A stretch of DNA of 64,000 nucleotides from the NCBI RefSeq assembly GCF_900110275.1, contig NZ_FODC01000001.1:1217198-1281197 (forward strand). The letters are read 5' to 3'. This DNA comes from Duganella sp. CF517. Its GTDB lineage: Bacteria; Pseudomonadota; Gammaproteobacteria; Burkholderiales; Burkholderiaceae_D. The translations under genes and the position numbers were made by a program. This document shows positions 24,583-59,282 of the stretch, in pieces (within the stretch, counting starts at the first letter, position 1; each line of letters opens with the position of its first letter). The notes beneath the pieces are model-generated. The model was not told the origin of the DNA and made no database searches. It saw only the letters and a list, made by a program, of their open reading frames with translations.

Positions 24583-25920
24583 TTAGCCGAGGTTGAACAC
24601 CGCCATCGACTCCACGTGCGACGTGTGCGGGAACATGTTGACCACGCCGGCCTTGTCGAGCACATAGCCGGCGTTGACCAGGATGCCGGCGTCGCGCGCC
24701 AGGGTCGACGGGCTGCACGACACATAGACGATGCGCTTGGGCAGCAGGTCCGCGCGGGCCTGGCTCAACGCCACCAGCGCCTCGCTCAGCGCCATGGCGC
24801 CGTCGCGCGGCGGGTCGATCAGCATGCGGTCGAACTTGCCGAGCGCGATTAAATCGTCGGCCGTCACCTCGAACAGGTTGCGCGTGTAGAACGTGGTCTT
24901 GTCCGACAGCCCGTTGGCCTTGGCGTTGTCCAGCGCCCGCTCCGACAAGGTGGTGCTGCCCTCGATGCCGACCACCTCGCGCGCCTGCGTCGCCAGCGGC
25001 AGGGTGAAGTTGCCCAGGCCGCAGAACAGGTCGGCGACGCGGTCTTGCGGACGCACTTCCAGCAGGCGCAGCGCCTTGCCCACCAGCACGCGGTTGATGT
25101 AGTGGTTGACCTGCGTGAAATCGACCGGCTTGAACGGCATCTTGATGCCGAATTCCGGCAGCAGGTAATGCAGGTCGTGGTCCAGCGGATAGAACGGCGC
25201 GGCCGTCTCCGGCCCCTTGGTCTGCAACCAGAACTGGATAGCGTGCAGGTCGGCGAAGGCTTTCAACTTGGCTTCGTCGTCGCCGGTCAGCGGCGCCATG
25301 ATGCGCAGCACCAGCGCGGTGACACCCTCGCCGATCGCCACTTCGATCTGCGGCACCTGGTCGTACAGGGACAGCGAGCCGATCAGCGCGCGCAGCGGCA
25401 GCAGCAGGTCGGACACGTGGCGCGGCAGGATCTCGCAGCTGTCGATGTCGGCGACGAACACCGATTTCTTTTCGTGGAAGCCGACCAGCACCGTGCCCTT
25501 CTTGGCCACGTGGCGCACCGACAGCCGGGCGCGGTAGCGGTAGCCCCAGGTCGGCCCGTACATCGGCCGCATCACCGTCAGCGGCCTGACCTTGCCGATG
25601 TGGCGCAGGTTGTCCTCCAGCACGCGCTGCTTGATGGCCACCTGCGCGGTCGGCTCCAGATGCTGCATCGAGCAGCCGCCGCAGTAGTCGAAATGCTTGC
25701 ACTTGGGCGCGACCCGCATCGGCGATTCGCGGTGCAGCGCGGTCATGCGCGCCATTTCCCAATTCTTCTTCTTTTTAAACGTGTAGAAACTGACCTTTTC
25801 GCCCGGCAAAGCGCCCTCGACAAACACCACCTTGCCCTGCGAGCCGTCTTCATTCTGCAAATGGCCGACGCCACGGGCGTCCATGTCGAGCGATTTGATG
25901 TCGAGGATAATATCTTGCAT
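24583..25920 (-). CDS. rlmD: 23S rRNA (uracil-5-)-methyltransferase RlmD
   Basis: A 445-residue SAM-dependent enzyme for m5U1939 in 23S rRNA. The N-terminal TRAM domain is visible (GKVVFVEGALPGEKVSFYTF). The iron-sulfur ligands are in CKHFDYCGGCSMQHL plus DSCEILP. The methyltransferase domain has VADLFCGLGNFTLPLA, MLIDPPRDGA and the catalytic-cysteine motif VYVSCSPSTLARD. The start is placed at 25920 (MQDIILDIKSLDMDARG), since upstream codons do not resemble the family. Confidence 0.95.
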   Translation of the reverse strand: MQDIILDIKSLDMDARGVGHLQNEDGSQGKVVFVEGALPGEKVSFYTFKKKKNWEMARMTALHRESPMRVAPKCKHFDYCGGCSMQHLEPTAQVAIKQRVLEDNLRHIGKVRPLTVMRPMYGPTWGYRYRARLSVRHVAKKGTVLVGFHEKKSVFVADIDSCEILPRHVSDLLLPLRALIGSLSLYDQVPQIEVAIGEGVTALVLRIMAPLTGDDEAKLKAFADLHAIQFWLQTKGPETAAPFYPLDHDLHYLLPEFGIKMPFKPVDFTQVNHYINRVLVGKALRLLEVRPQDRVADLFCGLGNFTLPLATQAREVVGIEGSTTLSERALDNAKANGLSDKTTFYTRNLFEVTADDLIALGKFDRMLIDPPRDGAMALSEALVALSQARADLLPKRIVYVSCSPSTLARDAGILVNAGYVLDKAGVVNMFPHTSHVESMAVFNLG

Positions 25921-26021
25921 AAAATTTAATTTTAGAGAAAGAATGGCCGGCGCCGGTCGCACGAGCGGGCCACGGGCCGCGGTTCGTGCCGGGGCCGATA
26001 TGATAGCAGAATGGGAAGGGG

Positions 26022-27053
26022 CTACAGCAGCGAATCGCGCACCACGCCGCGCGCGGCCATGGCCCGTTTGAGTTTGACCAGCGCTTCCTGCTGGATCTGG
26101 CGCACGCGCTCGCGGGTCACGCCCATCTCCTCGGCCAGGGTTTCCAGGGTGGCGGGATCGTCATTGTCGAGGCCGAAGCGGCGCATGATGACGATGCGCT
26201 GCTTGTCGGGCAGCTTGGTGAGCCAGTCGCGCATCAGCACCGTCATTTCGTGGTGCTCGGCGCGGGCGTCGGGACTGTCCTCGCTGTCGCCGGGCAGCAT
26301 GTCCATCAGCGACGATTGCGGATCGTTGTCGAGCGGGGCGTCGAGCGAGGTGGCGTGCTCGGACAGCGCCAGGATGTCCTGCACCTCCTCCACCGGGCGG
26401 CCGACCAGCTCGGCGATGTCCTCGGCGGTGGCGTCCTTGCCGTTGTGGTGCTGCGCTTCCAGATGGTATTTGCCGCGCAGGATTTGATTCAGTTCGCGCA
26501 CCATGTGCACCGGCAGGCGCACCGTGCGGGCCTGGTTCATGATGGCGCGCTCGATGCTCTGGCGGATCCACCAAGTGGCGTAGGTCGAGAAGCGGAAGCC
26601 GCGCTCGGGCTCGAACTTGTCGATGGCGCGCATCAGGCCGATGTTGCCCTCTTCGATCATGTCGAGCAGCACCACGCCACGGTTGATGTAGTGCTTGGCG
26701 ATGGACACCACCAGGCGCAGGTTGTGCTCGATCATGGTCTGGCGGGCGCTGAAGTCGCCGGCCTTGGCCAGGGTGGCGTAGTGCACCTCCTGCGGCGCCG
26801 TCAACAGCGGCCGGGTGCCGATCTGGTTCAGGTAGTGCTGGGTGGTGTCGGTCGACAGTTCGGCCGCCAGCACCTTTTTCAGTTCGTCGACCTCGAGCAC
26901 CGCCGGCGCCTCGGGCAGGCGCGCGCCGTCGCGCTCGCCGTCCGCCCCCTCCGCACCGTCCATGGCGTCGATGACTTCATCATCGCTGGACTCGTCCTGG
27001 AAATCTTCCGGGGCCGAGTCGTCATCCATTGGGTCGTGCGGCGTAGGTTTCAT
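26022..27053 (-). CDS. rpoS: RNA polymerase sigma factor RpoS
   Basis: A 343-residue stationary-phase sigma factor. An acidic N-terminal segment (residues 1-60) precedes region 1.2 ([20 protein letters not shown]), region 2 ([40 protein letters not shown]), region 3 and region 4 ([40 protein letters not shown]). The nlpD gene lies seven bases upstream. As elsewhere, rpoS transcripts probably begin inside or before nlpD. Confidence 0.97.
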
Positions 27054-27060
27054 GGCTCAG

Positions 27061-28032
27061 CTAGCGGTTAGGCAGGAATTTGGACGGGTCCACCGGTTTG
27101 CCCTGCTGCCGTATTTCGAAGTGCAGCTTGACGGAGTCGGCGTCCGAATCGCCCATCTCGGCAATCATTTGTCCCTTGGTCACGGTCTGGCCTTCCTTGA
27201 CCACGATGCTGCGGTTATGGGCGTAGGCCGACAACAAGCTATTACTGTGCTTCACAATAACGAGATTACCATAACCACGGATGCCGCTACCGGCATACAT
27301 GACTTTTCCGGCCCCCGCCGCCACGACGTGCTGGCCAGCTTTGCCGGCGATGTCGACGCCCTTGTTCTTGCCCTCGTCGAAGGTGGCGATGACCTTGCCT
27401 TCGGACGGCCACATCCAGCTCAGTTTCTCGTCGTCGGCGGCGGCCGACCCGGCCGCCGGGGCCGCCGGCGCGGCCGGCGGACGGACCGCCGGCGCCGCGG
27501 CGGCGGCCGGGGCCGGTGCCGGGGACGCCGCGCCGTTGGCGGCGACGTCCTTGCCATTGTCGGCGCGTTGCAGCTCGGCCAGCGCAGCGTCGGTGTACGG
27601 ACGCTTTTCGCCTTTCGGACCGGTCTTCTTGACCACCGGCGCCGGCGGCGGCGTCTTGTCGCTCGGCGGCATGGCCACGGCGGCCGTCTCCACGCCGCTG
27701 CCGTTGCCGGCGGCGTCCGGCGGCAGCACGCGCAGCACCTGGTCGACCTTGATGTCGTTCGGGTTGGCCAGATTGTTCCAGGCCACCAGATCGCGGTAAT
27801 TCTGACCGTATTCGAGCGCGATGCGGATCAAGGTATCGCCCTTTTTGACCGTATACAGGCCGCGCTCGTCGCGCGACACTTGCGCCGTTTCGCTCGGCGT
27901 GGCGGATTTCACTGGCGGGGTCGACACCGGACGGTCGATCACCGGGGCCTGGTTCGGGGTGGTGCCGCAGGCGCTCAGCAAAGCGAGCGCCAGGCTCAGT
28001 ACGAGCACATTACTTTTAGTTGTCATTCTCAT
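27061..28032 (-). CDS. nlpD: NlpD-type LysM/M23 lipoprotein
   Basis: A 323-residue envelope lipoprotein that activates amidases during cell separation. The lipobox is LSAC with Cys22. A LysM domain (YTVKKGDTLIRIALEYGQNY) binds peptidoglycan, then an Ala/Pro-rich linker (about residues 130-195) leads to a C-terminal M23 domain (VDIAGKAGQHVVAAGAGKVM, LHFEIRQQGKPVDPSKFL). The first metal-binding histidine of active M23 enzymes is missing (NKGVDIAG), which fits a regulatory rather than catalytic role. Canonical neighbour of rpoS. Confidence 0.95.
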   Translation of the reverse strand: MRMTTKSNVLVLSLALALLSACGTTPNQAPVIDRPVSTPPVKSATPSETAQVSRDERGLYTVKKGDTLIRIALEYGQNYRDLVAWNNLANPNDIKVDQVLRVLPPDAAGNGSGVETAAVAMPPSDKTPPPAPVVKKTGPKGEKRPYTDAALAELQRADNGKDVAANGAASPAPAPAAAAAPAVRPPAAPAAPAAGSAAADDEKLSWMWPSEGKVIATFDEGKNKGVDIAGKAGQHVVAAGAGKVMYAGSGIRGYGNLVIVKHSNSLLSAYAHNRSIVVKEGQTVTKGQMIAEMGDSDADSVKLHFEIRQQGKPVDPSKFLPNR

Positions 28033-28072
28033 CTTAAATTTCAGTTTGATGCGTAGGCGGACCGGTGAACGA

Positions 28073-28948
28073 TCACACCGTGCCCGGACGCAACGGGACG
28101 AAATGGCAATCTTCCAGCGTTTCGCTGGTCCATTCCTTCTTGCCGATGCGTGTAATCAGTTCCAGACGCTGCGCGCGGGCGCCGACCGGCGCCACCAGCC
28201 GGCCACCGATGGCGAGCTGTTCGAGCAATGCCCGCGGCACCTCCAAACCGGCCGCGGCCAGGATAATGCCATCGAACGGCGCCGCTTGCGGCAGGCCAAG
28301 CATACCATCTCCGTAATGCAACCGTAGATTCGGCACACGCAGAGGCCGCAGGTTGTGCTTTGCGAGCTCATGCAGAGGCTTGATGCGCTCGATAGAATAA
28401 ACCTCTTGCGCCACTCTTGACAACACCGCCGCCTGGTAGCCGCAGCCGGTGCCGATCTCGAGCACCCGCTTGAGCTGGCCGCCGTTGCGCATCACCTCGA
28501 TCATGCGGGCCACGATATATGGCTGGGAAATGGTCTGCTGGTGGCCGATCGGCAGCGAGGCGTCGATATAGGCCTGCGAGGCCAGCGCCTCCTCCATGAA
28601 CATGTGGCGCGGCACGCTTTCCAGCGCGCCGAGCACGACGTTGTCCTTGACGCCCTGCTTGGCCACCCGCTGCACCATGGCGCGGCGCACCGCGTCCGAC
28701 ACGAGCGGGTTCTGGCGCGGCGCCGGCGCCACCGCCGGCTGGGCCCGCTCCATCGCGTAGCTGTGGGCCTTGGACGGCACCGCCACCGGACGCGGCCCCG
28801 GATAACCGTGCTGCGGCGGCACGTGGCGCGCCGCGTTCTGGGTCGCCGTCTGCGGCGTGGCCACCGGCGCGAACAGGGTGGTCTTCTTGGCGCCCTTGTC
28901 CACTACCGACGACAGCGGCAGCGGAAAGGTCCGGGGTTTGTCGCTCAT
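28073..28948 (-). CDS. pcm: Protein-L-isoaspartate O-methyltransferase
   Basis: A 291-residue SAM-dependent repair enzyme that methylates isoaspartyl residues. The catalytic core from about residue 80 shows [54 protein letters not shown] and [20 protein letters not shown]. The N-terminal 75 residues (Pro/Ala/His-rich) extend beyond the roughly 210-residue E. coli enzyme; this longer form is common in Burkholderiales. Its ATG overlaps the surE stop (ATGA). Fourth member of the surE-pcm-nlpD-rpoS block. Confidence 0.95.
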
Positions 28949-29682
28949 GCCAGGCCCTTTTCCAGTGCCGCGAGTTGCGTTTTATGGGTCAGATCGACCT
29001 GCAGCGGCGTGATCGACGTGCGGCCGTTGGCGCAGGCAAAAAAGTCGGTGCCCTCGCCGGCGTCCCTGGTCGCGCCGGGCGGACCGATCCAGAAAATTTC
29101 CCGGCCGCGCGGGTCCTGCGAGCGGATCACCGGTTCCGACTGGTGGCGCTTGCCCAGCCGGGTGGCGGCCACCTGGGTCAGCTGCGCATACGGCAGGTTG
29201 GGGATGTTGACGTTGAGAAGGTACGGACGCGGCAGCGCTTCATAATAGCGCTCGACGATGTCGCGCGCGTGACGGGCGGCGTCGTCGATGTGCTCCCAGC
29301 CGAACGCGCCCTGGGAAAAGGCGATGGCGGGAATACCGAACAGGTAGGCCTCGGTGGCGGCCGCCACGGTGCCCGAATACAGCGTGTCGTCGCCCATGTT
29401 GGGGCCGTTGTTGATGCCGGAGACGACCAGGTCGGGCCGGTAGTCGAGCACGCCGGTGAGCGCCACGTGCACGCAATCGGTCGGCGTGCCGTTGACGAAA
29501 TAGAAACCGTTGGCGGCCCGCTGCACCGACAGCGGCCGGTCCAGCGACAGCGAATTGGACGAGCCGGAGCGGTTGCTGTCCGGCGCCACGACGACGATGT
29601 CGGCGATCGGCGCCAGCGCGGCGGCCAGGGCGTTGATGCCCGGCGCAAGGTAACCGTCGTCATTACTGATCAGGATTCTCAT
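28945..29682 (-). CDS. surE: 5'/3'-nucleotidase SurE
   Basis: A 245-residue stationary-phase survival phosphatase acting on nucleoside monophosphates. The metal-binding N-terminus [16 protein letters not shown], the [14 protein letters not shown] loop and the [20 protein letters not shown] motif are intact. Start and length are standard. First gene of the surE-pcm-nlpD-rpoS run, 69 bp after the accessory ATPase-TPR gene. Confidence 0.96.
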
Positions 29683-29751
29683 GCAGAGATTTTACCTGAA
29701 GCAACGCCCGGACTGCGCACCCGGACCGGTTCGCAACCAGATAAATTTACG

Positions 29752-31728
29752 CTAGCGCGACGCCGGCCGGCCGCTGGCGAGCTGCTCGTCGAGCGTCAGC
29801 AGGTCGTCGCTGGCGCGCGGGCGCGGATTGGTGACCGACATGGCCACGCGCGGATTGGGCGCCAGCCCCAGCGCGTCGTCGTAGTCGTCCATCGCCGCGT
29901 CCTGGTGCAGTTCGCGCACCGGCGCGTAGCCGTCCCGCGCCCCCGCCGGCGCGCCCGGCGCCGCGCCGTAGAAGTCCGGCTGCACGTGCGCGAGCAGTTC
30001 CAGGGTCCTGCGGGTGTCCGCGTGGTCCGGCCCCAGCCGGCGCAGCTGCGCCTGCAGCACCTTGTCGAACAGCACCCTCGCCTCGTCATGCTCGTTTTGC
30101 GCCAATAAAGTACAGGCCAGCGCGGTCTTGCTGCGCAAGGTGTCGGCGTGCTCGGCGCCGAGCAGGCGCTTGCGCTTGGCCAGCACCTGCTCCTGCTCGC
30201 GCCGCGCCTGGTCGAGGTCGCCCCGCTGGAACAGCAGGTCGGCGCGCGCCGCCTTGCAGGAGAGGGTCAGCAGATGTTCCGAGCCGAGCATGCGCAGGTA
30301 GGCGTCCAGCACGCAGTCCTGGATGCCCAGTGCCTCGGCGCCCTTGCCCTGCTCGGCCAGGGTGGCCGCCAGATTGGCGCGCGCGGCCAGCGTGTCGAGG
30401 TGCTCGGCCCCCAGCAAGCGCTCGCGGGCCTCGACGATGCACTCCTCCAGGAACTGCGCCTCGTCGAGCCGCCCCTGCTGGCGCAGCACGCCGGCCAGGT
30501 TGCTTTTACTAATCAGCGTATCGGCATGGTCGTCGCCCATGCCGCGCTGCCGCAGCCCCAGGCTTTCCTCGAAACAGGCCAGCGCCTGGCGCAGCTTGCC
30601 TTCGCGGCGATACAGCTCGCCCAACAGGTTGAGGTCGCGCGCGAGCGGCTGCGACAAGGCGCGCGCGCCGCCCTCCCCCAACGCCTGGCGCGCCTCCTCG
30701 ATGGCCGACAGCAGGTGGATCTCGCGGCTCGACTGCCACGGGAAATAGCCGGGACCGAGCCAGTCGAGGAAGGCCTCGAAGGTGCGCGTCAGCGAAAAAC
30801 GGTCGCCGCCCTGGTCCATCCGCACCGCCAACTGCTCGCCGTAGGCGAACGTACGGGTCTGTTGCAGCTGGACTTCGTCGAAATAACTGTCCAGCGACAG
30901 GTGCTGCATGCCGTAGCACTCGCACAGGAGGCGCTCGAAGATCGGCTGGTAACCGACGATATGATGCTGCGGGTCGCCGCGCCGCCATTGCGAGCGCTGC
31001 GTGCTGTCGCCCATTTCGATGCGCGACGGCAGCGGGTAGACCACCAGCGGCCGCTGCTCGTCCTCGTGGCTGCGCCGGTAGGCGGTGGCGCGGGTGACCA
31101 GCGCCTGCACCCCCTCCAGGCTCTGGCGGTTGGGCGTGAACACCACCACCAGTTTGCGCGGCAGCAAGGTCGTGCAAATGCCGGCGGTATCGGTGCGGCC
31201 GGTGCGCGAATCGACCAGCACGTACCGGAAGTGGCGCGCCAGCTTGTCGGCGAAGCAACGGAACAGCGCCGGGCAGCTGTCGAACAACGCGTCCCAGTGC
31301 AGCGCCGCCAGCCGCTCGCCATAGCTTTCGTCGAAACGGCCGGCGCGCATCAGATACAACTGGCTGCTCTGGTCGACCCGGCTGACGTATTGTTCCCATC
31401 CGACCGCGGCCAGCACTTCGTGCGCGAGCTCCTCGTCGTCGAGCACGTCGGCGCCTTTGCGGCGCCGGTGCAGTTGCTCGCGGCACGCTTCGAAAAACTC
31501 CAGCACGCCGGGTCGCTCCTCGCCGTGCTCGAAGTAGTGATGCAGGCCGGGCGCTTCCATGTCCCAATCGATCATCAATACCGGGGTGGTGGCGTTTTGC
31601 TGTCTTGCAAGCAACACGGCCAGATTGGACAGGGCCATCGTGCGCCCCGTGCCGCCCTTGTAAGAATAGAAAGTAACCACTTCGCCGTTGGCTGTGAGCG
31701 GTGGCAAAGACAATGATGTGGTTTCCAT
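29752..31728 (-). CDS. KGGTGR-motif SIMIBI-type ATPase with C-terminal tetratricopeptide repeats
   Basis: A 658-residue protein. The N-terminus has a deviant Walker A of the MinD/ParA type, FYSYKGGTGRTMALSNLA (residues 20-37), in which Arg replaces the usual Lys-Thr pair. DWDMEAPGLHHYF (54-66) and a Walker B-like VLVDSRTGRTD (170-180) follow. About residues 365-585 form five roughly 42-residue kinesin-light-chain-type TPRs built on an LGxEHxDTL pattern. The last 70 residues look disordered. It starts nine bases after the TIR gene, so they form an operon. This layout matches the KGGVGR-variant ATPases known from FxsT-like proteins. The ligand and activity are unknown; a sensor or regulator for the TIR protein is an inference. 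Confidence 0.8.
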   Translation of the reverse strand: METTSLSLPPLTANGEVVTFYSYKGGTGRTMALSNLAVLLARQQNATTPVLMIDWDMEAPGLHHYFEHGEERPGVLEFFEACREQLHRRRKGADVLDDEELAHEVLAAVGWEQYVSRVDQSSQLYLMRAGRFDESYGERLAALHWDALFDSCPALFRCFADKLARHFRYVLVDSRTGRTDTAGICTTLLPRKLVVVFTPNRQSLEGVQALVTRATAYRRSHEDEQRPLVVYPLPSRIEMGDSTQRSQWRRGDPQHHIVGYQPIFERLLCECYGMQHLSLDSYFDEVQLQQTRTFAYGEQLAVRMDQGGDRFSLTRTFEAFLDWLGPGYFPWQSSREIHLLSAIEEARQALGEGGARALSQPLARDLNLLGELYRREGKLRQALACFEESLGLRQRGMGDDHADTLISKSNLAGVLRQQGRLDEAQFLEECIVEARERLLGAEHLDTLAARANLAATLAEQGKGAEALGIQDCVLDAYLRMLGSEHLLTLSCKAARADLLFQRGDLDQARREQEQVLAKRKRLLGAEHADTLRSKTALACTLLAQNEHDEARVLFDKVLQAQLRRLGPDHADTRRTLELLAHVQPDFYGAAPGAPAGARDGYAPVRELHQDAAMDDYDDALGLAPNPRVAMSVTNPRPRASDDLLTLDEQLASGRPASR

Positions 31729-31737
31729 AACAAACCT

Positions 31738-32343
31738 TTAACGAGGGAAGTGGGGAGGGGGGACGGCGCGCCATTCGGGCGGAATGTCCGGCATGACGAA
31801 ACGACCACAGTCATGCCCGGGCGGCGTGCACTGTTTCAGGTAGTGGTAATGCTGGGCGATCCGCAGGACTATCTTTTTTATGTCCGGCAAAAACTCGGGG
31901 TTGGTTTTCAAGTCCCCGCTCGCCAACGTGTACCGCGAGAAATCGACGTACATGCCGGGACCCGAAATCTGCGGCGGCAAGCTCAACGGGTGCTGGGTCA
32001 TGATGACCGGGATAATCAAGTGACTGGGCAGCGTGTACCATTTCTTGCGCTCGTCTTCAATTAGTTGCATTGCCGCAAACTCACGCCGGGTGTAGGCATG
32101 GGCTTCATACTTCGGTGTGTAAATCACAATCATGCAAACGCTTTCACACATCGCCCTGGCAATCTTCTCGTCCAGGTCGTCGCCTCCGCCGAGTTGCTCA
32201 CTGTCGACAAACAATTCGTTCTCGTTGTCGAAGTGGGGTTCCAGATAACATTTCAGAGCATCGATCAAATCGTTCTTGAACTTGCTCATGTATGCATGCT
32301 GGCCGTGTGCATAGCTGAAAAAACAGCCGTGGCGGATAGTCAT
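31738..32343 (-). CDS. TIR-domain protein (FxsC-like)
   Basis: A 201-residue cytoplasmic protein, first gene of the cassette. Residues 5-92 form a TIR domain: beta-A HGCFFSYAHGQ (5-15), a BB-loop-like segment FVDSEQLGGGDDLDEKIARA (45-64), MIVIYTPKYEAHAYTRREFA (71-90). Glu88 in TRREF aligns by position with the catalytic Glu of NADase TIR domains, so NAD+ cleavage is possible. The remaining residues (105-201) have an LIIPVIMTQHP strand and a Pro-rich tail. No signal peptide or membrane helix. Effector or adaptor role is inferred. The TIR call is strong, the biochemical role is not known. Confidence 0.78.
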   Translation of the reverse strand: MTIRHGCFFSYAHGQHAYMSKFKNDLIDALKCYLEPHFDNENELFVDSEQLGGGDDLDEKIARAMCESVCMIVIYTPKYEAHAYTRREFAAMQLIEDERKKWYTLPSHLIIPVIMTQHPLSLPPQISGPGMYVDFSRYTLASGDLKTNPEFLPDIKKIVLRIAQHYHYLKQCTPPGHDCGRFVMPDIPPEWRAVPPPHFPR

Positions 32344-32521
32344 GGCCTCCTCCGATCCTGCTCCTTAGGGGAACAGCGCTTAACCAACTCTAACAATCCG
32401 CTCATCGGCCACTTTGCGCCAACGCAAACGGGTGCGATATGCAAGGCTTAGGTCAAGCGGGCGGTCGGATGGCTTTGGCTCAAGCGGCGAGCGGTCGCCG
32501 CGCAGGCGAGAAAAGCCAGAA

Positions 32522-32541
32522 ATTGGTTAGAACACACCAAT
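32522..32541. promoter_or_regulatory. ATTGGT-N8-ACCAAT inverted repeat upstream of the TIR gene
   Basis: ATTGGT at 32522-32527 and ACCAAT at 32536-32541, spacer 8 bp. A related arrangement with a wider spacer (ATTGGTTAGA ... TAACCAATATCT) lies upstream of sdhC at about 55735-55790. TTGGT/ACCAA symmetry resembles GntR-family operators, but no regulator can be assigned. Confidence 0.4.
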
Positions 32542-32604
32542 ATCTGGCATGATTTCAGGAAAAATCAAGGCATCGGGACGCGCTAGCGCGGATGAGCGGG
32601 CGGC

Positions 32605-32647
32605 GCGTCATCGGCCGCGAGCCGCGACGGCTCCCGGCCGATTACGC
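32605..32647. repeat. 20-bp imperfect stem-loop
   Basis: The left arm 32605-32624 pairs with 32628-32647 around a three-base loop CGA, with only two mismatched positions. There is no T-run next to it, so it is not a plain terminator. It may be a REP-like element or a boundary structure. Confidence 0.7.
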
Positions 32648-32701
32648 GCTCTGCGGTAATCCGCCCGACGAAAATCGCTGTGATCGCCCGCATGGGGCAA
32701 G

Positions 32702-32733
32702 AGAAAAAATACCGAAAGTTACTGTTCGGTATT
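32702..32733 (-). terminator. Rho-independent terminator overlapping the helicase stop codon
   Basis: Minus strand: AATACCGAA / TTCGGTATT, a perfect 9-bp stem (32708-32716 with 32725-32733), 8-base loop, then a T-run. The left half of the stem encodes the last residues of the helicase, whose stop codon (32719-32721) is in the loop. Confidence 0.85.
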
Positions 32734-34755
32734 CTTGTTTTGGAAGAAAGCGACCGCGTCGGCCTGCTCGCGGGTGCGCTTGAACGAAGGCAGGCTCTGC
32801 CAGATCCGCTTGCCGTAGGGCTTGGAAATGACGCGCGGATCGCACAACATCAACACGCCGCGATCGCCTTCATCGCGGATCAGGCGGCCGGCGCCCTGCT
32901 TCAGGTTGATGATCGCTTCCGGCAAGGTGTGGTGCATGAAGCCGTTTTTGCCCTGCTTTTCCATGACCTCGATGCGCGCGGCGAGCACCGGATCGTCCGG
33001 CGGCGCGAACGGCAGCTTGTCGATAATCACCAAGGACAGGGCGTCGCCGCGCACGTCGACGCCTTCCCAGAAACTCTGGCTACCGATCAGCACGCCATTT
33101 CCCGCCTTGCGGAACTGGTCGAGCAGCTCGGTGCGGCCCCGGTCGCCCTGGATAAACAGCGGATACGGCAGGCCGCGCTTCTCGAACTCGTCGCGCAGGC
33201 GCTCGGCGGCGCGCTTCACGGCGCGCAAAGTCGTGCACAAAAGAAAAGTTTTTCCGCCGGCCGCCTCGATCACCGGCAGCGCCAGGTCGAGCACCGCGTC
33301 GGTATAGCCGATGGAATTGGGGTCCGGCAAACCTTGCGGGACATATAAAAGGCCTTGCTGTTCGTAATTAAACGGGCTCGGCCACGTCTTCGACGGTTCG
33401 TCCGTCAGTCCCATTTGTTCGGAAAAATGGCTGAAATCATTCTTCACCGCCAACGTCGCCGACGTGAAAATCCAGCTGCGCGGCACGCCTTCGCGCTGGC
33501 CGTTGAAGATCGGCGCGATCGACAAAGGCGTTTTATGCAGCTGCAACGACGACGCGTAGGCTTCGACCCAGAACACCGCCTCCTCGCCTTTTTCGACGCG
33601 CGCCTTCGGATCGAATTTCCAGGACGACAATTTTTGCGCCAGTTCGATGCCGCGCTGGCGGCACTGTTCCAACGTCTCGGCGCGGGCCGCCTGGGTTTCG
33701 AGCACGGCCAGCATGCCGTCCAGCTCGTCCTTCAAGGTCTGCAAGGCCGGAAAAAAGTCGCTCGACGGCGCGATTTGCGGCAAGGACAGGCGCACGATAT
33801 CTTGCGGGAATGTCAACCTGAGGTCGCGCGCGGCCTTCTCCACCACCGTGACGACCTTGCCCCAATCGGCGCCGTCGCGCGCGTTCGACAAGCCTTCGGC
33901 CAGCACGTCGCGGCACAGTTCGAGGATTTGCGACGTCGAAAAGGTATCGCCGAAGAACAAGGTGGCAGTGTCCGGCAGTTGGTGCGCCTCATCGAAGATG
34001 ATGGTGTTGGCCGACGGCAGCAGCTCGGCGATGCCCGAATCCTTGAGGGCGACGTCGGCGAAGAACAGGTGGTGGTTGACGACGACCACGTCGGCCTGCT
34101 GCGCTTCCTTGCGCGCCTTCATGACGAAGCAATCCTGGTAATACTGGCACTCGGCGCCCATGCAATTGTCGCGGGTCGAGGTCACCAGGTTCCAGATCAG
34201 CGCGTTTTCCGGCACGCGCGCCAGCTCGGCCTTGTCGCCGGAACTGGTCATTTTCAGGAAACGCGAAATCTCGCGCAGGTGGCCGACGTCGTCGCGCGAG
34301 GTCATGCGGCCGTTCTGCAACGTGCGTTCCAGGTGGTAATGGCAGACGTAGTTCGAGCGGCCCTTGAGCAGCGCGACCGACACCGGCGCCTGCAAGGCGG
34401 CGCGCACAGTCGGAATATCGCGCAGGAACAGCTGGTCCTGCAAGTTTTTGGTCCCGGTCGAGACGATCGTCTTGCCGCCCCACAGCAAGGCCGGCACCAA
34501 GTAGGCGAACGTCTTGCCCGTGCCCGTGCCGGCTTCGGCGATCAAGGTGGTCTGGCTGGCGATCGCGGCGGCGACCGCCTTGGCCATTTCCGTCTGCGAG
34601 CGGCGCGGCTTGAAATCGCCGACAGCCGGACCCAACGGTCCTCCGGCGCCGAACAGTCGCTCGACCTCGGAATCGTATTTACCGGGGGGCAGGTCTGGGG
34701 TCGCCCCGACTACGGCGGGCGTGGCGTCGGCGGGCGTTGGAAGGTGTTCGGTCAA
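32719..34755 (-). CDS. ATP-dependent DNA helicase, DinG/YoaA type
   Basis: A 678-residue superfamily 2 (XPD-like) iron-sulfur helicase. Walker A is EAGTGTGKTFAYLVPALL. Four cysteines for the [4Fe-4S] cluster lie around NYVCHYH and CMGAECQYYQDC. VVVVNHHLFFADVAL and the DEAH box FDEAHQL follow. The C-terminal helicase half has IIDKLPFAPPDDP, GAGRLIRDEGDRGVLMLCDP. Such enzymes unwind R-loops, D-loops or stalled forks. The YdcH-like gene lies just upstream on the same strand. Confidence 0.92.
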   Translation of the reverse strand: MTEHLPTPADATPAVVGATPDLPPGKYDSEVERLFGAGGPLGPAVGDFKPRRSQTEMAKAVAAAIASQTTLIAEAGTGTGKTFAYLVPALLWGGKTIVSTGTKNLQDQLFLRDIPTVRAALQAPVSVALLKGRSNYVCHYHLERTLQNGRMTSRDDVGHLREISRFLKMTSSGDKAELARVPENALIWNLVTSTRDNCMGAECQYYQDCFVMKARKEAQQADVVVVNHHLFFADVALKDSGIAELLPSANTIIFDEAHQLPDTATLFFGDTFSTSQILELCRDVLAEGLSNARDGADWGKVVTVVEKAARDLRLTFPQDIVRLSLPQIAPSSDFFPALQTLKDELDGMLAVLETQAARAETLEQCRQRGIELAQKLSSWKFDPKARVEKGEEAVFWVEAYASSLQLHKTPLSIAPIFNGQREGVPRSWIFTSATLAVKNDFSHFSEQMGLTDEPSKTWPSPFNYEQQGLLYVPQGLPDPNSIGYTDAVLDLALPVIEAAGGKTFLLCTTLRAVKRAAERLRDEFEKRGLPYPLFIQGDRGRTELLDQFRKAGNGVLIGSQSFWEGVDVRGDALSLVIIDKLPFAPPDDPVLAARIEVMEKQGKNGFMHHTLPEAIINLKQGAGRLIRDEGDRGVLMLCDPRVISKPYGKRIWQSLPSFKRTREQADAVAFFQNKNTEQ

Positions 34756-34791
34756 AATATACTTAGTTGAGGCGCGCGCGGAAGCCGGACA

Positions 34792-34992
34792 TTACGCCGG
34801 CACGTCCGGCACCAGTTGCATTTTCAGCAGCGTGATATGGTCTTTCAACTGCAACTTGCGCTTTTTCAGGCGGCGCAGTTGCAGCTGATCGTGGTGTCCG
34901 TCCAGGGTGAGCATGTCGATCACCGCGTCCAGATCGCGGTGTTCGACGTCGAGTTCGATGAGACGACGCTGGATATCTTGTACATCAGTCAT
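34792..34992 (-). CDS. YdcH/DUF465 family small protein
   Basis: A 66-residue, highly charged helical protein: IELDVEHRDLDAVIDMLTLD followed by LQLRRLKKRKLQLKDHITLL. This is the DUF465 pattern, a helical hairpin with a conserved Leu-x-x-Lys-Lys-x-x-Leu-x-Leu-Lys-Asp segment. Function unknown. It lies 36 bp upstream of the helicase and is probably co-transcribed with it. Confidence 0.85.
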   Translation of the reverse strand: MTDVQDIQRRLIELDVEHRDLDAVIDMLTLDGHHDQLQLRRLKKRKLQLKDHITLLKMQLVPDVPA

Positions 34993-35149
34993 ATTTCTAG
35001 GTCTCTACCCACACAAAGTTTCACCGAAACAACACGCATATTGCAAACAAACTGCGACACGGTGCATAGTTTAATCTACGGCGGCTCCGCCGCCAACAGA
35101 ATGATCGATATCGCCGCTCGCCCGCCGTTCAGGATACAGTGTCAACCAT

Positions 35150-35923
35150 ATGAGCGCTTATAAAATAGAAGCCGGCACGGCCCAGCACATCGGCAACCGG
35201 CCACAGCAAAACGACCGCGTCGCCCTGCTGACGTCGCCGAGCGCGCCCGGCTATGTGCTGGCGGTGCTGGCCGACGGCAACAACAGTCCCGTCGGCTCTG
35301 ACCAGGCGCTGCTAACGAGCAAACACTTGTTCGATCAGTTCCGCGTCGGCGACGTGCCCAGCCTCCCCCGGCTGAAGGAGTTGCTCGCCGCGATAGTGCT
35401 GGAGGCCCATCAAGTCATCAAGATGAATCCGATCGCCGCCAGCGCGCAACCGCACTGCGCGCTGGCGCTGCTGGTGCTGACCCCGGCCGGTCAGGCGGTC
35501 TGGGCGCACGCTGGCGAAGCGCGCGTCTACCGCTTCAGCGGCGAGACCAGCGTCGGGCGCAGCAACGACAGCGCGTATATCGCGCACCTGGTGCAAGACG
35601 ACAAGGTGCCGCTGGAGGCGGCCAGGAAGCACCGCGGTTCCAGGCTGCTCAGCAATGTTCTGGGGAACAGCTTCAAGGCGCCGTTCGTCACGCTGGAAAC
35701 GCATGAGGGGCTGGCGCCGGGCGACGCATTTTTGCTCTGCTCGGATGGGCTGTGGCAGTGTTTCGCCGACCAGGAACTGGCGGCCGCGGTGGCGCGCAAC
35801 ACGCCGCGCCGGGCGGCCGAGCGCTTGATCGGCAAGGCCGCCGAGCGCGCGCAGGGCAAGGGCGACAATTGCACGATGGCGATCATCAAGTTCGTCGCGC
35901 CCGCCCCGCCCGCCGCCCGCTGA
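35150..35923 (+). CDS. PP2C-like protein phosphatase with altered metal motif
   Basis: A 257-residue protein of the PP2C/SpoIIE-type phosphatase fold. Motifs in order: RPQQNDRVALL (Asp22), VLADGNNSPVGSDQA (Asp42-Gly43), AHAGEARVYRFSGE, LCSDGLWQCF (Asp199) and GKGDNCTMAIIKF (Asp239). The usual DGMGG loop reads DGNNS and the GDSR motif reads GEAR, but the four metal-binding aspartates seem present, so activity on phosphoserine or phosphothreonine proteins is possible. It is a single plus-strand gene. No partner kinase is adjacent; a protein kinase gene lies 11 kb away. Confidence 0.75.
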   Translation: MSAYKIEAGTAQHIGNRPQQNDRVALLTSPSAPGYVLAVLADGNNSPVGSDQALLTSKHLFDQFRVGDVPSLPRLKELLAAIVLEAHQVIKMNPIAASAQPHCALALLVLTPAGQAVWAHAGEARVYRFSGETSVGRSNDSAYIAHLVQDDKVPLEAARKHRGSRLLSNVLGNSFKAPFVTLETHEGLAPGDAFLLCSDGLWQCFADQELAAAVARNTPRRAAERLIGKAAERAQGKGDNCTMAIIKFVAPAPPAAR

Positions 35924-35951
35924 GACACCGGCGCGCCGCGGCGGCGCCGGC

Positions 35952-36671
35952 TTACTGCTGTTTTTTCGCGGCGGCCGCTGCCGCCGCCGCCGCCGCAGCC
36001 GCCTTCTTCTTCTCGGCCGCGACCTTGGCCGACACCTTGCGTTCGGTCTCCGCCACCCGCTTGGCGACTTCGGCCTGACGACGCTCGGCGTCGATTTTCT
36101 TTTGCTCGAAGCGGGCCACGTTGGCGGCGCGCTTGTCGGCGGCCGCCGCCGTCGCGGCCGCCTCGCGTTTCATTTTGGCGGCATGGTCGGCTTCGCGCTC
36201 GGCCACGCGACGGCCTTTCGGCGGCGCCGGTTCCGGCTTGCTGTCGACATCCCTGACCGGCTTGGGCGGCAACGCTTCGCGCCGGGCCAGCTCCTCCTGG
36301 TCCTTGCGCACGCGCTCGGCCAGCTCGGCATCGCGGCGCGCCACCGAATCGGCGCGCTTGAAATGCTCGGCTTCCACTTCCAGCACGCGCAGGTTGGCCA
36401 ACGCGGCGCGGCGCTGCTCCTTGGCCTGGTCGAGACAATTGTTGACGAAGAATTTGTCGTTGCACACCGCCTCGCGGGATGCGTACTCGGCGTTGACGGC
36501 GGCACGCTCCGTGGCCACCTTGGCCAAGGTGGCGTCGGCCTCCTCGACCGAATGCGACGGCGGCGCCACCGACGTCGCCTCCTGCGCGACGGCCGGCGCC
36601 GCCACGGCGGCCACTGCGGCCAGCACGGCGACGGCGATCATGTCGCCCAACGGTTTCAAACTTGCTCTCAT
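35952..36671 (-). CDS. Secreted Lys/Ala/Glu-rich coiled-coil protein, unknown function
   Basis: A 239-residue protein I do not recognise. Start at 36671 (MRASLKPLGDMIAVAV) is fixed by AGGAAAG seven bases upstream. A signal peptide runs to about residue 31 (APAVAQ). The mature part contains two cysteines (VCNDKFFVNNCLDQAKEQRR) and a long charged region, consistent with coiled coil. The C-terminus is Lys/Ala-rich and ends in a 12-residue alanine run followed by KKQQ. Periplasmic location is likely. It lies 17 bp upstream-side of zapE's stop and converges on the PP2C gene. Confidence 0.7.
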   Translation of the reverse strand: MRASLKPLGDMIAVAVLAAVAAVAAPAVAQEATSVAPPSHSVEEADATLAKVATERAAVNAEYASREAVCNDKFFVNNCLDQAKEQRRAALANLRVLEVEAEHFKRADSVARRDAELAERVRKDQEELARREALPPKPVRDVDSKPEPAPPKGRRVAEREADHAAKMKREAAATAAAADKRAANVARFEQKKIDAERRQAEVAKRVAETERKVSAKVAAEKKKAAAAAAAAAAAAKKQQ

Positions 36672-36687
36672 ATTCTTTCCTGTGCCA

Positions 36688-37785
36688 TCAGGCCAGCGAA
36701 CCGGCCGCTGCCCGCTGTTCCTTATCCATGTATTCGCGCGACTGCATCTCGACAATGCGCGACACCGTGCGGTGAAATTCGTTGGCCAAGGTGCCGGTGG
36801 TGTACAACTCCTCCGGCTCGACCTCGGCCGACATCAACAACTTTACGCCCTGGTCGTAAAACACATCGATCAGCCACGTGAAGCGGCGCGCCTCCGACGA
36901 CATCGACGCCGACATCATCGGAATCCCGGACAATATCACGGTATGGAAGCGGCTGGCGATTTCCAGATAGTCGTTCTGCGAGCGCGGCCCGCCGCACAGG
37001 GTGTGGAAGTCGAACCAGATGATGGAACCGGCGCGGCGCAACGCGCGGATCTCGCGCGCCTCGATGCGCACCACCGGGTCCTCGTCGGCCGTCTCGGCGA
37101 TGCTGGTGTAGGCGTCGCGCAACTTCTGGTCGGTCTCGGCGTTGATCGGCGTGTAGTAGGAATCGACCTGCTCGAGCGCGCGGCCGCGATAGTCGATGCC
37201 GGCGTCGATGTTCATCACGTCGAGCTTCTCGTACAGCAGCTCGATGGTCGGCAGGATGCGGTCGCGGTGCAGCCCGTCCGGGTACAGCAGCTTCGGATCG
37301 TAGTTCGACGTCATGATGAAGGACACGCCGTTGTCGAACAGCGCCTTCAGCAGGTTGTACATGATCATGGCGTCGGCCACGTCGGAGATGTGGAATTCGT
37401 CGAAGCAGATCAAACGGTATTTCTTGGCGATGCGCTTGGCCACCTCGTCGAGCGGATTGGCGACGCCGGTCAGCTCGTCGAGCTGGCGGTGCACGCCGCG
37501 CATGAACTCGTGGAAGTGCAGGCGCGTCTTGCGCACCAGCGGCACCACCGAATAGAAGCTGTCCATCAGGAACGACTTGCCGCGCCCCACCCCGCCCCAC
37601 ATGTAGACGCCCTTGGGCACGTCGGGACGGTTGATCAGGCGCTTGAACGTGCTCGAGCGCTGGCCCTTGTACGCGACCCATTCGTCGTAGCATAGCTGCA
37701 GACGGTCGACGGCGCGGCGCTGTGCCGCGTCGGCCTTGAAATTGCGCTGTTCCAGCGCTTGCTGATAAAACTCTTCGACGTTCAT
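36688..37785 (-). CDS. zapE: Cell division protein ZapE (AFG1-like ATPase)
   Basis: A 365-residue AAA-type ATPase that binds FtsZ and destabilises filaments. Walker A is GGVGRGKSFLMDSFY, Walker B ICFDEFHISDVADAMIM, and sensor segment IMTSNYDPKLLYPDGLHRDR. The C-terminal part reads FTWLIDVFYDQGVKLLMSAE and RTVSRIVEMQSREYM. The start at 37785 (MNVEEFYQQALEQRN) matches the family. The stop is followed by the coiled-coil protein gene. Confidence 0.94.
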   Translation of the reverse strand: MNVEEFYQQALEQRNFKADAAQRRAVDRLQLCYDEWVAYKGQRSSTFKRLINRPDVPKGVYMWGGVGRGKSFLMDSFYSVVPLVRKTRLHFHEFMRGVHRQLDELTGVANPLDEVAKRIAKKYRLICFDEFHISDVADAMIMYNLLKALFDNGVSFIMTSNYDPKLLYPDGLHRDRILPTIELLYEKLDVMNIDAGIDYRGRALEQVDSYYTPINAETDQKLRDAYTSIAETADEDPVVRIEAREIRALRRAGSIIWFDFHTLCGGPRSQNDYLEIASRFHTVILSGIPMMSASMSSEARRFTWLIDVFYDQGVKLLMSAEVEPEELYTTGTLANEFHRTVSRIVEMQSREYMDKEQRAAAGSLA

Positions 37786-37809
37786 GTGTTCGATTCTATG
37801 TGGGCGGCG

Positions 37810-37840
37810 CAAACAAAAACGGGCGGACCGCAGTCCGCCC
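37810..37840 (-). terminator. Rho-independent terminator of the odh/lpd transcript
   Basis: Minus strand: GGGCGGAC / GTCCGCCC (37821-37828 with 37833-37840), loop TGCG, then GTTTTTGTTTGC. It lies about 120 bp after the lpdA stop, beyond a large inverted repeat. Confidence 0.85.
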
Positions 37841-37863
37841 GCAGTCCGCCTGTTGGACTCGAA

Positions 37864-37960
37864 GGTTGCTTCAAACCGTGTGCGGCGAGGCGCGGCGACG
37901 AAGGCAGTACGCCTGTACGGCGAGGAGCCGCAACGAAGCCGCGCGCGGTTTGATGCGACC
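37864..37960. repeat. 97-bp imperfect inverted repeat after lpdA
   Basis: The outer arms 37864-37878 and 37946-37960 pair at 13 of 15 positions. The interior is GC-rich with further pairing of GCGGCG and CGCCGC-type segments. The composition and intergenic site are those of a dispersed REP-type element, but no second copy is present in this window. Confidence 0.6.
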
Positions 37961-37963
37961 GTC

Positions 37964-39394
37964 TTAGAAGTTCAGCGTGCGCTTGTCGATAGCCAGCGCT
38001 GCCTCTTTGGTCGCTTCCGACAACGACGGGTGGGCGTGGCAGATGCGCGCGATGTCTTCGGCCGAAGCCTTGAACTCCATCGCCACGACCGCTTCCGAGA
38101 TCAGCTCGGAGGCCATCGGTCCGATGATGTGAACGCCGAGGATTTCGTCGGTGGTCGCATCGGCCAGGAACTTGACCATGCCCGAGGTGTCGCCCAGCGC
38201 GCGCGCGCGGCCATTGGCCAGGAACGGGAAGGTGCCGGCCTTGTAAGCGACGCCCGACGCCTTCAGTTGCTGCTCGGTCTGGCCGACCCACGCGATTTCC
38301 GGCGAGGTGTAGATAACCCAAGGAATGGTGTTGAAGTTGGTGTGGCCATGCTGGCCGGCCATGCGCTCGGCAACGGCAACGCCCTCTTCTTCCGCCTTGT
38401 GCGCCAGCATCGGGCCGCGCACCACGTCGCCGATCGCCCACACGCCCGGCAGATTGGTTTTGCAATCGCCATCGACCGCCACGAAGCCGCGCTCGTCCAG
38501 CGACAGGCCGACCTTGTCGGCGGCCAGGCCGTCGGTATTCGGGGTGCGGCCGATCGACACGATCAGCTTGTCGAACACGGACGTGATCGACTCGCCCTTG
38601 GCGTTCTCGTACACCACGGTGACATTGTTGTCGCCCTTGGTGATCGCGCCGATCTTGCAACCGAGGTTGATCGACAGGCCTTGCTTGGCGAACAGCTTGC
38701 CGGCTTCCTTGGCGATCTGCTCGTCGACCGCGCCGAGGAACACTGGCAGGCCTTCGAGCACGGTCACTTCCGCACCCAGGCGGCGCCATACGGAGCCCAT
38801 TTCCAGGCCGATGACGCCGGCGCCGATGACGCCCAGCTTGGCGGGTACGCCCTGGATCGCCAGCGCGCCGGTGTTCGACAGGATCAGTTGCTCGTCGAAC
38901 GGTGCGCCCGGCAGTTCACGCGCGTTGGAACCGGTGGCGATGATGACTTGCTTGGCGTTGATGGTCTCGTTGGCGGGCGCCGAGATCGTCAGCGGGTAGC
39001 CTTCGGCGCTGGCGGCACCGGCGAACGAGGCGCGGCCGTGGAAGAAGGTGACCTTGTTTTTCTTGAACAGGAACAGGATGCCGTCGTTGTTCTGCTTGAC
39101 GACCTGGTCTTTGCGCTTGAGCATTTGCGGCAGGTTCAGCGACAGGCCGGCGACATCGATGCCGTGGTCCTTGAACGCGTGGCCGGCGTGCTCGAAGTGC
39201 TCGGACGATTGCAGCAGCGCTTTCGACGGGATGCAACCGACGTTGGTGCAGGTGCCGCCCGGCGCCGGGCCGCCTTTTTCATTTTCCCATGCGTCGACGC
39301 AAGCAACGGAGAAACCCAGTTGTGCGGCGCGGATGGCGGCGATATAACCGCCGGGACCGGCGCCGATGACTACTACGTCAAATTGTTTACTCAT
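37964..39394 (-). CDS. lpdA: Dihydrolipoyl dehydrogenase
   Basis: A 476-residue FAD flavoprotein, the E3 component of 2-oxoglutarate dehydrogenase. N-terminal FAD motif [20 protein letters not shown], redox-active disulfide in [23 protein letters not shown]-binding [20 protein letters not shown], and the C-terminal catalytic His-Glu dyad in [16 protein letters not shown]. Placed downstream of odhB and a PspC-like gene on the same strand, so it belongs to the odh operon. Confidence 0.96.
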
Positions 39395-58283: not shown

Positions 58284-59282
58284 ATGCACCCATCCGAGGT
58301 TTTATTCCAGGGCAATCGCCAGCCGCTGCTGCTGCCGGCCTGCGACCACTACGCCGGCTCCGAAAAGCTGATGCGTAAATCGATCGCTCTGCAACAAGAA
58401 CTTGGCCCGCTGTTCGACATCACGCTCGACTGCGAGGACGGCGCCAGCGCCGGCAACGAGGCCGCCCACGCGCGCCTGGTGGCCGAGCTGCTGGCCTCCG
58501 ACGACAACAAATTCAACCGCATCGGCGCCCGCGTGCACGACGTCGGCAGCCCGTTCTTCGCCCAGGACGTCGAGATCATCTGCGCCGCCGCCCAGCGCCT
58601 GGCCTACCTGGTGCTGCCGAAGGTCCACGGCGCGCAGGAAGTGCTCGACGCCATCGTCCTGATCAACCGGCACGCCGAACAAGCCGGCCGCAAAGACCTG
58701 CCGATCCACGTGCTGATCGAAACCCACGGCGCGCTGCGCCAGGCCTACGACATCGCCGCCATTCCGCAAGTGCAGTGCCTGTCGTTCGGCATCATGGACT
58801 TCATCTCGTCGCACTACGGCGCCATTCCCGGCGCGGCCATGCGCACGCCAGGCCAGTTCACGCATCCGCTGGTGGTGCGCGCCAAGCTGGAAATCTCGGC
58901 CGCCTGCCACGCGCACGGCAAGGTGCCGTCGCATAACGTCACCACCGAGATCAAGGACACCGCCGTCGCCGCCAACGACGCCCAGCGCGCCGCCGCCGAA
59001 TTCGGCTACACGCGCATGTGGAGCATCCACCCGAACCAGATCAAGCCGATCATCAAGACCTTCACGCCGCGCCTCTCCGAAGTCAACGAGGCGGCCGCCA
59101 TCCTGCTGGAGGCGGCGGCCGGGCAATGGGGGCCGATCGCGCAAAACGGGCGCTTGCACGACCGCGCCAGCTACCGATATTATTGGACCGTTTTACAGCG
59201 CGCCAAACTGGCCGGGCTGAGCTTGCCCGAGTCGGTGGCCGCGCTGATGAACCCCGCCGACCACCCACTGGAAACAAACTGA
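58284..59282 (+). CDS. HpcH/HpaI aldolase / CitE-like CoA-ester lyase
   Basis: A 332-residue TIM-barrel protein related to citrate lyase beta and malyl-CoA lyases. Features: LLLPACDHYAGSEKLMRKSI, FDITLDCEDGASAGNEAAHA (Asp/Glu metal and CoA site), VLPKVHGAQEVLDAIVLI, HVLIETHGALRQAYDIA, and MWSIHPNQIKPIIKTFTP. Start at 58284 (MHPSEVLFQGNRQ) is preferred; a GTG at 58152 in frame would add a Pro/Ala-rich 44-residue extension. Located after mdh and before acnA. Confidence 0.85.
   Translation: MHPSEVLFQGNRQPLLLPACDHYAGSEKLMRKSIALQQELGPLFDITLDCEDGASAGNEAAHARLVAELLASDDNKFNRIGARVHDVGSPFFAQDVEIICAAAQRLAYLVLPKVHGAQEVLDAIVLINRHAEQAGRKDLPIHVLIETHGALRQAYDIAAIPQVQCLSFGIMDFISSHYGAIPGAAMRTPGQFTHPLVVRAKLEISAACHAHGKVPSHNVTTEIKDTAVAANDAQRAAAEFGYTRMWSIHPNQIKPIIKTFTPRLSEVNEAAAILLEAAAGQWGPIAQNGRLHDRASYRYYWTVLQRAKLAGLSLPESVAALMNPADHPLETN

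Follow-up and report, generated by a model that had tools for sequence, protein, structure and literature searches.

We describe here a two-gene locus in a stretch of 64,000 nucleotides from Duganella sp. CF517 (positions 1,217,198 to 1,281,197 of contig NZ_FODC01000001.1; hereafter, the window), in which a gene for a TIR-domain protein is followed by a gene for a KGGVGR-type ParA/MinD-like ATPase with C-terminal tetratricopeptide repeats (TPR). The pair is a vertically inherited, nearly fixed, single-locus chromosomal module of one clade, whose TIR is strictly conserved and whose ATP-binding motif, in the partner, has broken down several times. We read it as a domesticated conflict-type TIR module in which selection keeps the TIR and ATP has become dispensable for the ParA/MinD-like partner in part of the clade, and we assign this reading a probability of roughly 45%. 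Bacterial TIR proteins have mostly been known as accessory effectors of immunity; here, a near-core, single-locus, strictly conserved TIR stands ahead of the rpoS operon in common soil, water and plant bacteria. The partner's ATPase site decays and the TIR site does not, which provides a natural experiment on the role of a resident TIR and on ParA/MinD-like control without ATP.

The TIR gene (31738..32343, minus strand) encodes 201 residues, with a TIR domain at about residues 8-137 and a conserved C-terminal tail (W191, P200), and its product matches Pfam TIR_2 with an E-value of 6.1e-10 (40.1 bits; cut-off 28). Its stop codon lies nine bases before the start of the ATPase gene (29752..31728, minus strand; 658 residues), the product of which scores 129.5 bits against the NCBIfam model AAA_KGGVGR (NF047398), above the cut-off of 90, and carries five TPR_10 and five TPR_12 stretches according to Pfam. 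The deviant Walker A motif KGGTGRT (residues 24-30; 31639..31659, minus strand) fits the pattern KGGxG[RK][ST] and is degenerate in several related lineages. The TPR region (residues ~362-574; 30007..30645, minus strand) is the fastest evolving part and is absent in some relatives. Both open reading frames (ORFs), their strand and spacing, and the TIR, KGGTGR and TPR features confirm what a preliminary description of this DNA had reported from its letters.

The same description had pointed to a glutamate at a catalytic position of the TIR, and the comparison across loci supports it. Residue 88 (in the motif YTRREF; codon at 32080..32082, minus strand), which we take to be the position of the catalytic Glu in NAD-cleaving TIRs, is Glu in all 138 loci with an intact TIR and in 113/113 distinct intact TIRs. 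In a very weak match (E 0.74), it corresponds to the final Glu of WTEYE in the PDB chain 7uxr_A. F8, Y11, D47, G54, D55, T85 and R87 are also invariant across the 138 loci. For pairs from 108 loci, the median ratio of nonsynonymous to synonymous substitution rates (dN/dS) of the TIR, 0.11, was about that of the neighbouring dinG (0.13); the other medians were 0.18 (surE), 0.22 (pcm), 0.35 (ATPase core) and 0.58 (TPR part). These values come from simple Nei-Gojobori counting, in which the pairs are not independent and dS is high (above 1 for the TIR).

The partner shows a different pattern. At the aligned position, KGGxG[RK][ST] is intact in 76/114 distinct ATPase N-terminal parts, the P-loop is degenerate in 36 (for example ESGTARS, QDGCGRS, EGGPARN, DSAPVRS and RNDGSRS) and two parts are unreadable, in a sample that leans to Duganella; an earlier text match had given 72/106 with the motif, 32 degenerate and two unread. 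The P-loop of locus L294, EGGAARS, is likewise degenerate. On the host tree presented below, the P-loop state changes five times by the strict motif, or four if KGGSGCT (locus L083) is let pass. Rows with a degenerate P-loop gave a dN/dS of 0.16 for the TIR and 0.50 for the ATPase core (42 rows, 202 pairs) and rows with a canonical one 0.08 and 0.21 (83 rows, 1381 pairs), with labels taken from the text match and not from aligned positions; constraint on the ATPase core thus persists in the degenerate rows. Partner length ranges from 338 residues, with no TPR in the alignment, to 824, and the TPRs from none to many. The preliminary description had likened such ATPase-TPR proteins to NLR/STAND-type sensors. 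An ATP-driven sensor of this type is not supported: Pfam finds no STAND, NACHT or NB-ARC domain in the window's ATPase protein at E<=1, and the Walker A motif has decayed repeatedly while the TIR has been conserved. We thus reject a STAND/NLR regulator identity.

To trace the inheritance of the pair, we consider its distribution across genomes. The TIR and the ATPase each match in all 60 genomes of the window's genus, far more than chance would give; one of these genomes (G005) holds only a deletion remnant, in which a natural in-frame deletion (L085:9002-9616) joins the first ~63 residues of the TIR to a TPR stretch and the position of Glu88 is lost. Searched alone, the TIR is present in 57/62 Massilia genomes. 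A sample of the family, with 145 genomes and 44 genera, gave TIR matches in 32 genomes and five genera (the 93 non-matching genomes carry no breakdown by genus, so absence within the genera g4, g6 and g12 was not counted). A profile built from 27 TIRs matched 4/300 genomes of an order-wide sample, all four of the same family, and 4/398 of a phylum-wide sample, two of these being weak matches to large proteins from a different family. Named genomes yielded 144 TIR relatives; the 80 listed belong to Duganella, Rugamonas, Pseudoduganella, Janthinobacterium or Massilia, with the exception of five records whose names go no further than Oxalobacteraceae or Burkholderiaceae bacterium. Overall, no close relative of the TIR was found outside the Oxalobacteraceae clade in the order- and phylum-wide samples and among the listed named-genome relatives, and there was no TIR match in plasmids, phages or viral contigs.

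On a host tree of 72 rows built from dinG, surE and pcm, all intact pairs fall in one clade of 55 rows (support 100), and their presence requires four changes (L085 was scored as having none, its TIR being broken). Since the outgroups lack the pair, we read these changes as one gain and three losses, a direction that is inferred, the parsimony counts themselves giving none. The losses are L085, L293, in which the whole pair is gone without trace, and L289-L292, among which L291 keeps a TPR relic of 61 residues between surE and qor, a quinone-oxidoreductase-like gene described below. TIR divergence follows host divergence (Mantel r 0.87 for 100 distinct loci, with 0/2000 permutations as high), as does that of the ATPase core (r 0.76). 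Host and TIR distances agree and the TIR has no plasmid, phage or viral matches, and we reject a mobile or phage-borne cassette. Nor did the variably present defence cassette of the preliminary description survive the comparison, given the counts in Duganella and Massilia. The pair comes close to the invariant presence in relatives that would mark a core housekeeping pair, being near-universal in the clade, but it is dispensable, as the five Massilia genomes without it show.

The genes next to the pair are conserved as well. Downstream, surE (28945..29682, minus strand) starts 69 bases past the ATPase gene and is followed by pcm, nlpD and rpoS; upstream, the boundary is a dinG-type helicase gene (32719..34755, minus strand), both surE and dinG being named from their translations. 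The rest of the window in regions 1-24500 and 25000-38000 looks like housekeeping genes, by inspection of translations. The gene order common to 32 loci from five genera is dinG, sometimes a divergent qor, at times other genes, TIR, ATPase, surE, pcm, nlpD and rpoS (the stretch of L072 begins past dinG, and L085 has its deletion). The distance from dinG to the TIR varies from ~0.1 to 8.7 kb over these loci. Since the gene content of this gap differs between species, the left flank is an insertion-prone spot, with TIR, ATPase and surE kept tight. In L070, L071, L094 and L096 the gap holds different extra genes per species, up to 8.7 kb. A gene for a PP2C-like phosphatase beside dinG (35150-35923 in the window) was undetected in L073, L078, L080, L086-L088 and L101, with its neighbours kept.

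We also compared 17 surE stretches from genera of the family without the pair. Twelve have dinG, seven of them as dinG-qor-surE and five as dinG-surE without a qor match, two of the latter with another reading frame in between; of the remaining five, one has qor beside surE and no dinG match, and four have neither. Since pair-less relatives show dinG-(qor)-surE, the pair occupies a place, in front of surE and in the same orientation, where those relatives lack it; together with the host tree, this bears out the insertion site between housekeeping genes that had been suggested for the window. A third component between dinG and the TIR was considered and rejected: the recurrent spacer of 1.2 kb is the divergent qor, named from its translation, and since qor is also there in 8/17 stretches without the pair, it belongs to the ancestral neighbourhood.

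The TIR was never seen without a partner gene. The ATPase gene follows on the same strand in 138/138 loci, within 200 bases in 133 of them and within 417 in the other five, and the two genes co-occur well beyond the window, as expected of the two-gene unit first proposed. Such strict coupling would also be expected of a toxin-antitoxin-like pair, in which the ParA-like/TPR protein would inhibit a harmful TIR and locus stabilisation would be the main effect. The conserved first gene and fast-evolving second gene agree with this, as does the single deletion in L085, which breaks both genes at once. Yet the whole pair can be lost without trace (L293), it is chromosomal and vertically inherited, and a conserved promoter-like element, described below, suggests regulated use; we consider a toxin-antitoxin role improbable.

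Under the domestication reading, a pair of an FxsC-like TIR and a KGGVGR ParA/MinD-like TPR protein would have entered once, ahead of surE, in the Massilia-Duganella-Janthinobacterium ancestor, and would then have become a resident chromosomal locus. The function of the locus would reside in the conserved TIR, most likely an enzyme that processes NAD(P)+ by means of Glu88 and is kept inactive in its default state. Its ParA/MinD-like partner is predicted to bind and control it, and the variable TPR arm of this partner may receive the cue. The ancestral partner probably bound ATP, which would not be needed in every lineage, and after repeated P-loop decay the partner may persist as a pseudo-ATPase binding partner. 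The role of such a module could be a stress or stationary-phase response, or resident immunity. In a more specific and rather unlikely version, a TIR enzyme of a conflict system would have taken on a physiological role, as a resident signal of stress or stationary phase that is based on NAD(P)+ and linked to the surE-pcm-nlpD-rpoS operon, under the control of a former ATPase whose ATP switch was lost several times. If the role is physiological, TIR chemistry would have a wider use in bacteria; if it is immune, this would be an unusual, fixed defence system.

Several observations weigh against this reading. Among solved TIRs, the best match to this one has an E-value of 0.74, a very weak similarity, so the fold assignment rests on Pfam. 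The pair is dispensable: 5/62 Massilia genomes (two losses on the tree) lack it and a deletion has fused its genes in G005. The contrast in constraint between the two proteins comes from the simple dN/dS counts qualified above, and its split by P-loop state from the text-match labels. Since the whole partner is less constrained in the degenerate rows (0.50), part of it may be decaying and not re-used. Rapid change in the TPRs would equally suit a sensor engaged in an arms race. Finally, KGGVGR proteins elsewhere in the phylum occur in conflict-type settings, which fit immunity as well.

The last two points lead to the strongest competitor, an ordinary anti-phage abortive-infection system that became fixed in the clade, in which the TPR protein would recognise a phage component and release a TIR NADase. 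A TIR effector with a fast-evolving TPR arm of variable length is what such a system would have, its KGGVGR relatives sit in conflict-type loci, and a search with PADLOC models gave two hits in the same direction: the ATPase domain (residues 14-217) matches the candidate model PDC-M28B (E 4.4e-16, 57 bits) and the TIR weakly matches PDC-S66 (E 1.2e-4). However, the PDC-M28B match covers the shared ATPase domain only, no second component of this candidate system was found (none was searched for), and the pair matched no established defence system in PADLOC. The near-universal presence at one locus, the low TIR dN/dS and the lack of TIR matches in plasmids, phages and viral contigs also speak against it. 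We hold this explanation to be fairly unlikely, and less probable than domestication. The TIR also weakly matched an Aga_TIR model, and 6/27 TIR members weakly matched the Thoeris-type ThcB4 model (best E 5.2e-5; 17.1 bits of 220 for the window). A Thoeris system presumably requires a ThsA-type partner, and none was seen in the pair.

The closest named relatives are found in FxSxx-COOH loci, a resemblance that had been noted for the window and was borne out. FxsC (NF040588) is the best named match for the TIR (27/27 members at E<=0.001), with the window's TIR at 39.6 bits, below the cut-off of 130. FxSxx_TPR (NF040586) is the best named match for the TPR arm (20/25 members; best E 4.5e-60, 204 bits), with the window's partner at 111.7 bits, below the cut-off of 300. 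There is no FxSxx-COOH precursor near the pair, in line with the preliminary description: among 480 short ORFs (20-120 residues) of the window, a single one has an FxSxx terminus, and it lies 26 kb from the pair, at 58604, and has a non-ATG start. The interval between dinG and surE in the window has no room for a radical SAM gene beside the pair, although no profile search was aimed at radical SAM proteins. Kaur et al. 2020 (PMC7159879) describe an AP-ATPase domain in FxSxx-COOH systems; the window's pair has none according to Pfam. With both proteins below the cut-offs and no peptide, we reject membership in these systems. The same authors (PMC7159879) describe MinD/ParA-like domains of conflict systems that are predicted to be inactive, which fits the P-loop decay in the clade.

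The partner belongs with the KGGVGR AAA ATPases (NF047398), matched by 25/25 clade members at E<=0.001. When five members were scored singly, four with a degenerate P-loop fell below the cut-off (70.8 to 84.1 bits) and one with KGGVGRT was above it (121). Unlike other KGGVGR AAA ATPases, those of the clade lie in a fixed syntenic locus with a separate TIR gene. A single protein of 734 residues from Sinorhizobium chiapasense (WP_331375610) carries both a KGGVGR ATPase, whose domain aligns with ours over 272 columns, and TIR_2, so the two domains do associate elsewhere. We rejected its TIR as a close relative, since hhalign gave a probability of 0.1% and a match outside the TIR. This gene is plasmid-borne, with two other TIR-annotated genes nearby.

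Regarding regulation, a conserved element of 18 bases, TTGTTAGAGTTGGTTAAG, lies 53 bp upstream of the TIR start (32379..32396, minus strand) and contains the -10-like sequence TAGAGT. It was found with at most three mismatches in 35/114 distinct TIR upstream regions; in some more distant ones (L077, L093, L096 and L100), a shorter core, TTGTTA-AGT, stands roughly as far from the TIR. Since a scan for the sigma-70 consensus found no promoter, the promoter role of the element is one that we infer. A hairpin at the end of dinG (32708..32733) is a likely terminator separating dinG from the pair; the terminator scan, which found 6 terminator-like sites against 4.0 expected, lists it on the plus strand, and its minus-strand T-run was read from the sequence.

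We also considered quorum sensing. In Table 3 of PMC5080296, the TIR-domain gene Jab_2c19720 of Janthinobacterium sp. HH01 has a log-fold change of -2.29 in an autoinducer-synthase mutant (RNA-seq), and the same table lists it as core except in strain Marseille, and with a JAI-1 motif. This presence pattern would fit the TIR gene of the clade, of which Jab_2c19720 may be an orthologue. An exact JAI-1 motif lies upstream of 3/114 TIRs, compared to 0.5 expected in shuffles, and was not found upstream of the other 111, the window's TIR included. Control through the published motif is thus rejected as a general feature and is at most lineage-specific. These data bear on a further alternative, in which the TIR would be a non-enzymatic assembly domain whose housekeeping role is linked to that of the surE-pcm-nlpD-rpoS operon, such as stationary-phase or quorum-sensing output. 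The Jab_2c19720 entry, the small excess of JAI-1 motifs and the position of the pair, co-directional with and directly ahead of that operon, are in its favour, but the motif is missing at nearly all TIRs, and Glu88, T85 and R87 are invariant, as an active site would be, making this alternative doubtful. Apart from the Jab_2c19720 table row, no description of the locus was found among the literature matches listed; most subscription journals lay outside the search, so this does not prove that the locus is unpublished.

A second TIR_2 gene occurs in the window's genome, as a frame of 348 residues on another contig (L102, G000:C18:4657-4980). In a phylum sample of 249 genomes, the KGGVGR model scored above its cut-off in 34, with up to four matches per genome, and the ATPase core of the pair matched 17 plasmid records, all below 60% identity, nine of which were opened. 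Ten KGGVGR proteins were scanned for additional domains, and five had such a domain above its cut-off: TIR_2 in one (the Sinorhizobium plasmid), EAD10 with a STAND-type domain in one (a Pseudanabaena plasmid, where caspase and SAV_2336-type genes are neighbours), Mrr_cat with NACHT in two and TPR in one. Among ten neighbour proteins scanned, one was above a cut-off, with HEPN. Several of the loci L193-L207, from the same phylum, show a gene of ~145 residues, a KGGVGR ATPase of ~430-470 and a gene of ~385, with overlapping ends; two partner proteins scanned from L193 had no or weak Pfam matches (AAA_16). In three opened plasmids we found another two-gene unit, with a gene annotated as an MqsA-family antitoxin just upstream of a KGGVGR ATPase of ~620 residues (L224:5434-7854 on the Massilia forsythiae plasmid NZ_CP051687.1, 174 bits, and also L225 and L227).

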